Shown here: piece after piece, positions 10,081-29,595 of the stretch
Position numbering within the stretch: the stretch's first letter is position 1
Layout of the letters: each line of letters opens with the position of its first letter
Source of the DNA: Candidatus Bathyarchaeota archaeon
Lineage (GTDB): Archaea > Thermoproteota > Bathyarchaeia > Bathyarchaeales > WUQV01
Assembly (NCBI GenBank): GCA_021158125.1
Contig: JAGGVF010000006.1
Coordinates: forward strand, 114,938 to 147,962
Reading direction: 5' to 3'
Length of the DNA: 33,025 nucleotides
Translations under genes and position numbers: made by a program
Notes under the pieces: generated by a model
Seen by the model: only the letters and a program-made list of their open reading frames with translations
Databases searched by the model: none
Told to the model about the DNA's origin: nothing

Positions 10081-11295
10081 TCAAACCGTATAAAACAGAA
10101 TTATCAGAGAAGTCAACGTTAATGTTAGCAACGTATCAGTTAGGGCTGTTTCCAAGGGAATAACGAAGTTATCAGGGTCTAATCCTCTCTTGAAAGTCAG
10201 AATAGCTACTAGGAAGGATATTGCTATCATTACTGGAAATATTAGGTTAAATGATGCTAGAGGTAATAGAAAGGAGAAGAAGTTTCTCCCTGGGAGATAA
10301 GCGATAAAACCGTAAACTATGTAGTAGATGGTTGATGAAAGCCATAATTGTGCTAAATCTTTAATCTGTCTCGTTAAATGAGAGAATTTGCTTTCAAGGG
10401 TTCCTATAAAAAGCTTGGTTGTCGAGATTGAGCCGAAAATTGCCACAGAATCTCCAAGGGTATCTATTAAGGCAGGATAGATTATGAGAACTTCTGGAAG
10501 GGCTTCAAGTTTACTCTTTATATGCGATAACGAATAGCCAGAAACGGTAGCTACTAAAGTGACCGCAATTATAGTCAAGGATGCTTCCCTTAATGTTCTC
10601 CAATACTCTGATTGCGCCCTAAAAATGTAGGCTAGTATCCCGGCCAAAATTATGGTAACTATGCCTGCCACGTAAATAATTGTCCGTCCAGCCGGAAGCC
10701 AGAAAGCCATGTAAAGAGCAATTAGATATGAAATTGTAGCCCATATGTCCGCCAGTGTAGACGATATAGGGTAAAGGATAGCGTCTGGGTCTAGTCCGCG
10801 TTTAAAAGCTATAAAGCCTATCATGGACGTGGCTGGAACAGTTAGGAGCATGGTTATAGCTTGAGCAGTTATACATGTTGAAAATATGAGTGGCAATTCG
10901 CTTGGCAGTGCGCCCGTAACTATAAAAGCCATAGTACTCATAATGAAACTGCCAATCAAGGATAGGGAAAGAAGCGAAGAAGCAATGGCATAATAATATC
11001 GCGTATTTTTTGTCAAGCTGGGCTTTATTAACTCTACGTGAAGACCCGTGCTGAGCCTTCCAGCCAATACGCCGTTTAGGGCTCCACGTCCAGTAAGAAC
11101 TATCGGGTAGATAGCTATTGCCCAGCTTTTAAGAAATATAAGAGTTGCATAGTATCCGATGAAGCTGCCAGCGATTAATCCGCCCAAATCGAAGCTTAAG
11201 GAGAAAAAGGATTCAGTAAAAACTCTAAATTTCCTTTCTACCTTCTCCTCTCCGGAGTTTAGTGTTTCCGCTTGCATATTGTTGTGAACTTTCAT
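10081..11295 (-). CDS. MgtE/SLC41-type divalent cation (Mg2+) transporter, two-repeat form without sensor domains
   Basis: About 404 residues with some ten membrane helices in two homologous halves. Each half has the MgtE membrane-domain signature: YPIVLTGRGALNGVLAGRLS then KRGLDPDAILYPISSTLAD in half one; YPALIDTLGDSVAIFGSIS then KRGLDPDNFVIPLETALTD in half two. Each GLDPD...P...D motif belongs to the ion path of MgtE. Bacterial MgtE is a dimer of single-repeat chains with cytoplasmic N and CBS magnesium sensors; here both repeats are fused and no sensor domain exists. The frame stays open to a GTG at 11304, but that GTG belongs to an AAGGTG ribosome-binding site six bases before the ATG at 11295. 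Divergent from two PhoU/TrkA_C genes that may act as its regulators. Confidence 0.87.
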   Translation of the reverse strand: MKVHNNMQAETLNSGEEKVERKFRVFTESFFSLSFDLGGLIAGSFIGYYATLIFLKSWAIAIYPIVLTGRGALNGVLAGRLSTGLHVELIKPSLTKNTRYYYAIASSLLSLSLIGSFIMSTMAFIVTGALPSELPLIFSTCITAQAITMLLTVPATSMIGFIAFKRGLDPDAILYPISSTLADIWATISYLIALYMAFWLPAGRTIIYVAGIVTIILAGILAYIFRAQSEYWRTLREASLTIIAVTLVATVSGYSLSHIKSKLEALPEVLIIYPALIDTLGDSVAIFGSISTTKLFIGTLESKFSHLTRQIKDLAQLWLSSTIYYIVYGFIAYLPGRNFFSFLLPLASFNLIFPVMIAISFLVAILTFKRGLDPDNFVIPLETALTDTLLTLTLTSLIILFYTV

Positions 11296-11371
11296 CGTTT
11301 CCACCTTCCACTTGTTGCACCTCCATCTTGCTCCGGAGAGGAGACGAACTCCAGTTGTTACATCGGAGCAA
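11244..11371 (-). promoter_or_regulatory. Candidate switch-like RNA leader of the Mg transporter gene (alternative stem-loops)
   Basis: On the minus-strand transcript three segments can pair in two exclusive ways. Segment A (11371-11364, TTGCTCCG) matches the 3' part of segment B (11344-11328) with eight perfect pairs; a 4-bp inner stem (11349-11352 with 11340-11343) sits within the loop. Segment B (14 bases, 11344-11331) also pairs perfectly with segment C (11257-11244), which lies inside the coding region, enclosing the ribosome-binding sites and start codon in the loop. A transcript starting near 11373, as placed by the TATA box, would begin with segment A. The pairings are read from the sequence; a regulatory role is inferred. 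Confidence 0.45.
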
Positions 11372-11393: not shown

Positions 11394-11404
11394 CAATTAT
11401 AATC
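11394..11404 (-). promoter_or_regulatory. TATA box for the Mg transporter gene
   Basis: On the minus strand GATTATAATTG lies about 100 bases before the start codon. Transcription about 25 bases downstream would begin near 11373, just before the paired leader segments, leaving an untranslated leader of roughly 78 bases. Confidence 0.5.
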
Positions 11405-11435
11405 TTTTCGTCGGTTTAGCCCTCCCGGAAAGCAT

Positions 11436-11518: not shown

Positions 11519-12130
11519 ATGACTGAATTCGAAAAAATTGAATATAAACCCGTGTCAGTCCGAGAACTGCTAACTGAAATGAAAGATACCTCCGAGCTAA
11601 TGATAGACTTAGCGTACTCAGCCGCACTTTTCCACAGCAAAGAACTAGCCGAGGAAGTACTAGAACTCGAAAGTTACATTGACACGCTGGTGTACTTGCT
11701 TAACATGAACGCCATGCTTGCCGCCAGAGACGCTGAAGACGCAGAAGCTCTAGTAAGCGTAACAGTAGTTGCAAACGCAACCGACAAAATATCAGATGCA
11801 GCAGCCGACATGGCAACCATAGTGCTCAGAAATATAGGCATACACCCACTAATCCGAGAAGCCTTCCAAAAAGTTGAAGAACACCTAACAAGGGTTAAAG
11901 TCAAATCCCGCTCTTTCTTCGTGGACAAAACAGTAGGAGAACTGAAACTCGCCCCAAGAATAGGCGTAGACGTCATCGCCATTCGAAGAGGAAAAAAATG
12001 GATACTGGACCCAGAAGAAGACGAGGTAATACGAGAAGGCGACATCCTAATTGCAAGAGGCGCTCCAGCCGGCATAGAAGAATTTGAAGAAGCAGCAGAG
12101 GGAAAAATCGAAAAACTGGAGGAAGAATAA
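11519..12130 (+). CDS. PhoU + TrkA_C (RCK_C) domain protein (COG3273 type), first copy
   Basis: A 203-residue soluble protein with two parts: a helical PhoU-like region (about residues 12-115, with TSELMIDLAYSAALFHSKE) and a TrkA_C/RCK_C ligand-binding domain (about 125-195, ending GDILIARGAP). TrkA_C domains sense small ligands and control cation channels. No nucleotide-binding TrkA_N domain or membrane helix is present. Archaeal genes of this type often sit beside MgtE-like transporters, so a role in gating or sensing for the divergent transporter is likely but inferred. The second copy begins five bases after the stop. Confidence 0.85.
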   Translation: MTEFEKIEYKPVSVRELLTEMKDTSELMIDLAYSAALFHSKELAEEVLELESYIDTLVYLLNMNAMLAARDAEDAEALVSVTVVANATDKISDAAADMATIVLRNIGIHPLIREAFQKVEEHLTRVKVKSRSFFVDKTVGELKLAPRIGVDVIAIRRGKKWILDPEEDEVIREGDILIARGAPAGIEEFEEAAEGKIEKLEEE

Positions 12131-12733: not shown

Positions 12734-12810
12734 TGGTGGGCCGGGCCGGACTTGAACCGGCGACCTTCGCCGCGTCAGGGCGATGTCCTACCACGCTAGA
12801 CGACCGGCCC
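12734..12810 (-). tRNA. tRNA-Val (GAC anticodon)
   Basis: On the minus strand the 7-bp acceptor stem GGGCCGG/CCGGCCC, D arm, anticodon stem TCGCC/GGCGA, loop CTGACGC (anticodon GAC) and T arm GCCGG-TTCAAGT-CCGGC fold without mismatch. The discriminator is A and the CCA end is encoded. No intron. A near-identical tRNA-Val with anticodon CAC lies at 18311-18387. Confidence 0.96.
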
Positions 12811-16177: not shown

Positions 16178-16255
16178 GGGCGGGTAGATCAGCCTGGAAT
16201 GATCGCGGCGTTGGCATCGCCGAGGTCGCGGGTTCAAATCCCGCCCCGTCCACCA
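16178..16255 (+). tRNA. tRNA-Ala (GGC anticodon)
   Basis: Acceptor GGGCGGG pairs with CCCGTCC and includes the G3:U70 wobble pair that identifies alanine tRNAs. The anticodon arm CGGCG-TTGGCAT-CGCCG gives GGC; the T arm GCGGG-TTCAAAT-CCCGC is perfect. Discriminator A and an encoded CCA follow. No intron. Confidence 0.97.
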
Positions 16256-18310: not shown

Positions 18311-18387
18311 TGGTGGGCCGGGCCGGACTTGAACCGGCGACCTTCGCCGCGTGAGGGCGACGTCCTACCATACTAGACTACCGGCCC
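18311..18387 (-). tRNA. tRNA-Val (CAC anticodon)
   Basis: Minus-strand cloverleaf with acceptor GGGCCGG/CCGGCCC, anticodon loop CTCACGC (CAC), T arm GCCGG-TTCAAGT-CCGGC, discriminator A and encoded CCA. It differs from tRNA-Val(GAC) at 12734 in only about five positions, all in the 5' half or anticodon; the 3' half is identical. Confidence 0.96.
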
Positions 18388-29518: not shown

Positions 29519-29595
29519 GCCGCGGTAGCTCAGACTGGGAGAGCACCCGGCTGAAGACCGGGTTGTCGCCGGTTCAAGTCCGGCCCGCGGCACCA
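29519..29595 (+). tRNA. tRNA-Phe (GAA anticodon)
   Basis: Acceptor GCCGCGG pairs with CCGCGGC; D arm GCTC...GAGC; anticodon arm CCCGG-CTGAAGA-CCGGG gives GAA; T arm GCCGG-TTCAAGT-CCGGC. Discriminator A and encoded CCA. No intron. It ends seven bases before the stop codon of the convergent giant surface protein. Confidence 0.97.

Follow-up and report, generated by a model that had tools for sequence, protein, structure and literature searches.

Computational evidence for a conserved hairpin and an overlapping leader ORF at the start of an MgtE-type transporter gene in Bathyarchaeia

The transporter locus

The DNA analysed here, a stretch of 33,025 nucleotides referred to as the window, is part of a contig in the 1.37-Mb genome of an uncultured archaeon placed among the Bathyarchaeia. 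The named relatives of the locus under study are mostly titled 'Candidatus Bathyarchaeota'. The features of interest lie around the start of a gene encoding a divalent cation transporter (Table 1). Membership of the MgtE family follows from the PF01769 membrane domain, which is matched in two stretches with 89.7 bits against a curated cut-off of 27.6. Bacterial MgtE proteins with a cytosolic sensor have N and CBS domains, whereas neither of these Mg2+-sensing domains was found at E<=0.001 in the window's transporter, read as the 407-aa protein from GTG 11304. The start at ATG 11295, which gives 404 aa, was chosen by the spacing of the SD motif SD2 and by comparison with relatives.

Table 1. 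Features of the transporter locus, in window coordinates.
Feature	Position	Strand	Description or sequence	Basis
MgtE-type divalent cation transporter	10081..11295	-		PF01769, E=2.3e-25
uORF1	11225..11311	-	unannotated leader ORF, 28 codons, (V/M)EGGNDESSQQYASGNTKLRRGEGRKEI	conserved peptide family, pN/pS, geometry control, relatives
Segment C	11244..11257	-	hairpin 3' strand, CTCCGGAGAGGAGA	pairs with B
SD2	11301..11307	-	AAGGTGG, for transporter ATG 11295	5 nt before ATG; kept in L100, L102 and L168
SD1	11318..11324	-	GGAGGTG, the stronger SD, for uORF1	6 nt before GTG 11311; kept in L100, L102 and L168
Segment B	11331..11344	-	hairpin 5' strand, TCTCCTCTCCGGAG	pairs perfectly with C over 14 bp; changes compensated in relatives
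Segment A	11364..11371	-	TTGCTCCG	pairs over 8 bp with the 3' part of B; absent from L100, L102 and L168
Predicted archaeal promoter of the transporter	11395..11410	-	BRE CGAAAAGA (11410-11403) and TATA TTATAATT (11402-11395)

The arrangement of BRE and TATA box recurs upstream of the related loci L100, L102 and L168. From its position, transcription would start near A11373 and segment A would occupy approximately nucleotides +3 to +10; the initial annotation, which had placed the 5' end of the RNA almost exactly at A, is reasonable on this point. Scans for sigma-70 promoters and intrinsic terminators found none. Sigma-70 is not expected in archaea.

A gene for a protein with PhoU and TrkA_C domains (11519-12130, plus strand) is divergent from the transporter gene, and by sequence the same holds in L100 and L102. 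Its product is a possible regulatory partner of the transporter. The intergenic block CCAAATAAATCTTTATG, which L100 and L102 conserve and L168 retains for the most part, may be the promoter of this gene. Further along the window there are four tRNA genes: Val(GAC) at 12734-12810, Ala(GGC) at 16178-16255, Val(CAC) at 18311-18387, and Phe(GAA) at 29519-29595.

A long-range hairpin with two initiation sites in its loop

The initial annotation described three segments around the transporter start, of which B could pair either with A (8 bp) or with C (14 perfect pairs), the second pairing closing a loop of 73 nt. All of these pairings are exact. Segment B is followed by CAA, which extends to 11328, and segment C coincides with codons 13-18 of the transporter. 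The loop does enclose a ribosome-binding site and the transporter start codon, as had been proposed, but not as a single site: it holds two initiation sites, SD1 with the GTG of a leader ORF and SD2 with the transporter ATG. A stem around so large a loop does not alone hide start sites.

How robust is this stem? A 14-bp stem arose in 0 of 20,000 dinucleotide-shuffled pairs of the 52-nt flanks, and the duplex energy of B-C was matched by 6 of 1000 shuffles. The 146-nt leader folds with -41 kcal/mol (z = -2.6) into an optimum that contains B-C. Partition-function folding, which the initial annotation had named as a check, gives the pairing a probability of 0.95, and the stem is dominant in the ensemble at both 37 and 60 C.

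Relatives were sought in whole genomes and named genome contigs, which yielded 178 loci and later two more; class- and phylum-wide searches at a strict cut-off added only L179 and L180. The close clade comprises L100 (the same region as L002/L031), L102, L168 (as L089), L106 (as L179), L180, L105, L099, and L104 (as L005). Two of these have uncertain provenance. The contig of L102 (JAPDJO010000009.1), titled Thermoplasmatota, has a leader and a transporter that belong to the Bathyarchaeia clade of the window and is possibly mislabelled or misbinned. The transporter copy at L089/L168 (G120:C35) is 56-57% identical to that of the window, is broken into several open frames, and belongs to a bin in another family; possibly it represents a misbinned contig or a transfer, with frameshifts.

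The B-C stem is identical in L100 (14 bp) and has 13 bp in L102. In L168 it is formed by ACCCCTCCAGAG/CTCTGGAGGGGT, with 12 bp and three pairs changed on both sides. In L106 a stem of 11 bp (17 with two G·U pairs) stands in the same place with a wholly different sequence, TGCAATATTCA/TGAATATTGCA. L180 has a weaker stem in the same place, equalled by 66 of 1000 shuffles, and L105, L099, and L104 have none. In every relative that bears the stem, it starts 20 nt before the start of the leader ORF and re-enters inside that ORF; thus, two competing starts share one closed loop.

To bring the columns into register for counting pairs, B and C of each sequence were linked through a constant artificial spacer into a composite row. 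Across the four distinct B/C sequences, 96.4% of cells are paired and 12 of the 14 pairs show double changes, rising to 14 of 14 when L180 is added; these counts lean towards the stem, because the register of L106 and L180 was set by the stem itself. None of 500 shuffles of the composite rows was as good on all five measures, and slid controls remained near 50%. A search-wide shuffle test of single loci gave 0 of 20,000 for L001 and L168 and 32 of 20,000 for L106. The compensatory changes that the initial annotation had called for in B-C are therefore present among relatives, and the calculations support a hairpin that is real and under selection.

Could the coding sequence dictate C and B match it accidentally? 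Segment C does lie within two reading frames, and the three clade members without a stem would fit such an explanation. However, B is non-coding and tracks the changes of C, and the shuffle tests of both kinds leave so little room for coincidence that chance is hardly credible here. It is very improbable, too, that B and C serve as an inverted pair of operator sites at which a bound regulator loops the DNA. The inverted orientation of the two segments and, in the window, the palindrome CTCCGGAG would suit an operator, but C sits within coding sequence, and in L106 the complementarity persists at the equivalent position of the reading frame although the letters are entirely different. Moreover, in the whole genome the 13-mer occurs exactly only at the B and C sites, and with one mismatch it occurs at three sites, compared with one for a control pattern.

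Segment A and the proposed switch

The initial annotation regarded A-B and B-C as mutually exclusive stems, and the second of these stands by covariation. The first does not: A is absent from L100, L102, and L168, where the 5' ends read CATTCGTATC, CATTCGCACC, and CATCAAAAAT, respectively, and CGGAGCAA no longer forms the 3' end of B. With A absent and the end of B different in these relatives, a conserved mutually exclusive switch is not supported. A stem of 8 bp is of a length that can be attained by chance in such a region.

On the RNA side, the initial annotation had described the leader as unlike the M-box and mgtA classes. The M-box (ykoK) is a cis-acting Mg2+ riboswitch in the leaders of bacterial Mg2+ transporter genes, including mgtE. 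Neither the window nor the related loci searched gave a match to the M-box (RF00380), and the window's leader differs from it in consisting of a single long-range stem that closes over coding sequence. An Rfam cmscan of the window at gathering thresholds returned tRNAs and no riboswitch family; a permissive scan (E<=5) of the leader strand at 14 related loci found no leader riboswitch, and its weak hits are irrelevant. There is little leader outside the hairpin, and no conserved unpaired block that would hint at a ligand pocket was seen there.

A riboswitch for Mg2+ or another ligand, in which A-B and B-C would alternate and control the ribosome-binding site, nevertheless has some points in its favour. 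In the window, A can be extended to a 16-bp helix that buries SD1 when the RNA starts upstream of 11379. For RNA from about 11380, the accessibility of SD1 is 0.04 with C omitted, against 0.58 with B-C formed, and a ACCUUCAU/AUGGAGGU pairing is possible in L102 as well. However, the start predicted from the TATA box removes the ACCUUC part of the helix, and the full helix is missing in relatives. The release of SD1 also differs among loci: with B-C formed, SD1 is more open in L001 and L168 and somewhat more so in L100 and L102, changes little in L180, and is less open in L106, so that it follows no general rule. Together with the lack of an Rfam match in the window and the 14 related loci, this makes a riboswitch very improbable. 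The idea that B acts as a general anti-SD sequence sequestering SD1 was also considered and set aside, having been observed only in L100 and L168.

A leader ORF overlapping the transporter start

The first of the two initiation sites in the loop opens uORF1, which the initial annotation had missed. It spans the transporter ATG in a different frame, and an alternative start at ATG 11326 would extend it to 33 codons. In L102, residues 2-16 of uORF1 are unchanged while the transporter frame there has changed V to A and N to S. The first 26 codons of the transporter have an identity of 19/26 to L100 and 22/26 to L102, compared with about 53% for the whole protein. Such N-terminal identity is unusual for a transporter, but constraints from both frames and from the stem are intermingled here, and substitutions within the trio of the window, L100, and L102 do not tell one frame from the other. 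With an overlapping leader ORF in view, control based on translation becomes the likelier mechanism, in place of RNA sensing.

Leader ORFs across the Bathyarchaeia

Is uORF1 peculiar to the window? Of 122 unique upstream regions in sense orientation, 36 matched a profile of 18 leader peptides at E<0.01, and no antisense region did; roughly half of these 36 are themselves seeds or near-identical to seeds. Typical peptide cores are EGGNDESSQQ, EGENDEASQH, and EGSDCDDGDQH, and acid-rich ORFs that overlap or precede the transporter gene are found in many Bathyarchaeia families. At most of the loci with an overlap, the end of uORF1 lies 59-86 nt beyond the transporter ATG. The profile also matched L124 (JAAOZP010000017.1, E=0.0064), an acidic overlapping leader ORF on a contig titled Thaumarchaeota, and the feature may thus reach beyond the Bathyarchaeia.

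Substitution patterns point in the same direction. Seven pairs, hand-picked to limit overlap, have a pN/pS of about 0.46 in the ORF frame, while the other frames give about 1.0 and 0.77; the sum over all pairs, which are not independent of each other, gives 0.60 versus 0.80 and 0.92. The genome sets searched carry kinship labels (f1, f5, f7, and so on): in most f7-type pairs pN/pS is lowest in the uORF1 frame, and in the f5 group the test did not favour that frame.

An SD followed by an ATG reads as acidic codons in a shifted frame, and geometry-matched controls were used for this reason. An SD-preceded ORF is open through the start at 26 of 83 transporter starts, taken without profile selection. 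The controls, 45 starts of other genes on the same DNA, show this once (Fisher p=3e-5); the set is small and only partly controls for the SD2-ATG geometry. The mean number of D/E residues in seven codons is 2.97 for the profile-selected ORFs, 1.98 for the unselected, and 1.24 for the controls. The computational evidence supports a leader ORF that is both conserved and acid-rich. Fusion of uORF1 with the transporter by frameshifting is ruled out, since uORF1 of L003 stops 74 nt before the transporter start.

Two other arrangements were observed. In the first, a further small ORF, 38-60 codons long, begins at the overlapped start; in seven loci (L131, L054, L051, L130, L134, L137, and L132) its stop coincides with the transporter start in an ATGA, and this overlap suggests translational coupling between the second ORF and the transporter. 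The other consists of far-type leaders (L041, L050, L052, L039, L042, L069, and others), located about 50-230 nt upstream of the transporter. They contain an almost invariant GGUUURGGAGCGA, followed by GUGGAG.UUGA and UUGAAGGRGUGCCUAUGG. In 7 of 18 such leaders, a block further downstream is paired with GUGGAGYUUGAGGGC (p<0.05, mononucleotide shuffles). The blocks of far-type leaders match no Rfam family, and RNAalifold gave no clear consensus for these leaders beyond short stems.

Stems that enclose the overlapped start are in excess over expectation, with 11 of 33 at p<0.05. This bears on a sober alternative, namely that B-C is merely structural (a protection of the 5' end, a processing signal, or a constant damper) and uORF1 a small protein or a constant enhancer, with no switching at all. 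A 14-bp stem would be stable at any Mg2+ level, it is dominant at both temperatures, and no conserved alternative pairing was found, A itself not being conserved. Against this stand the constant placement of the stem relative to the leader-ORF start in each stem-bearing relative and the recurrence of stems around overlapped starts in other families. Both suggest a link with translation of the leader ORF, and the structural explanation is unlikely, while deserving to be taken seriously.

Comparison with known leader ORFs

Leader ORFs before Mg2+ transporter genes are known from enterobacteria. The mgtL ORF of E. coli and Salmonella lies in the leader of mgtA and acts through intrinsic destabilization of the ribosome. 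The window's leader resembles mgtL in having a short, here predicted, leader peptide, acidic at its start and then with basic residues, ahead of the gene for a Mg2+ transporter, and, as in mgtL- and mgtQ-like leaders, an RNA stem overlaps the ORF: segment C, with its covariation, falls on codons 19-23 of uORF1. The two also differ. The mgtL peptide is proline-rich and its ORF is separate from mgtA, which encodes a P-type ATPase, whereas uORF1 overlaps the gene that it precedes, has no proline pattern, and stands before an MgtE-type transporter.

A closer parallel in working is provided by Salmonella mgtQ, an acidic ORF with stem-loops that controls the translation of mgtB; its residues Asp2 and Glu5 reduce translation of mgtQ itself and increase that of mgtB (PMC8092293). 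In both cases, a small ORF that is acidic near its start precedes a Mg2+ transporter gene, and the stem-loops overlapping that ORF, here predicted, have a bearing on how the transporter is translated (PMC8092293). However, mgtQ has 8 aa, is intergenic, and does not overlap mgtB, unlike the 28 codons of uORF1 that run over the transporter start (PMC8092293). In addition, alternative stems hiding the mgtB RBS were shown experimentally for mgtQ, whereas the window has one conserved long-range stem (PMC8092293). The likeness drawn between mgtQ and this archaeal leader would be one of working; homology is not claimed. N-terminal chains rich in D/E also destabilize eukaryotic ribosomes, and N-terminal enrichment in D/E is generally avoided in proteomes (PMC9718836).

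How might the transporter be controlled?

A hairpin around a small overlapping ORF suggests that transporter output is set during translation of the message. Judged from sequence, the transporter is probably under translational control. We also lean, somewhat less firmly, towards its specific form, an overlapping acidic leader ORF within a closing hairpin that works in the manner of mgtQ/mgtB. No description of an archaeal Mg transporter under RNA or leader-ORF control was found in the open-access literature.

Competition between the overlapping frames is the most economical reading. The B-C stem would close a loop with two overlapping starts, a strong one for uORF1 and a weaker one, in the other frame, for the transporter. 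Ribosomes that initiate on uORF1 would run over the transporter start and keep transporter synthesis low. At about codon 15-19 they would meet the GC-rich stem, which may act as an obstacle. If uORF1 ribosomes were to abort early or pause, the transporter start in the loop would be freed and more transporter would be translated.

What could trigger such an event? The favoured candidate is low Mg2+ with an effect on the acidic N-terminus of the nascent chain, although Mg2+ as the signal, through destabilization of the ribosome, is a guess and a doubtful one. It would make the archaeal ribosome itself a Mg2+ sensor, its acidic leader peptide aborting translation when Mg2+ is scarce and so turning the transporter on, a tentative idea that is similarly unlikely to prove right as it stands. 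If true, bacterial mgtL and mgtQ would have a parallel in a second domain of life that involves another kind of transporter.

The covariation of the hairpin and the conservation of the overlapping ORF point jointly to a leader that works at the level of translation and is present in many Bathyarchaeia families. Should the acidic leader behave like its enterobacterial counterparts, the use of the ribosome as a Mg2+ gauge would be common to two domains.
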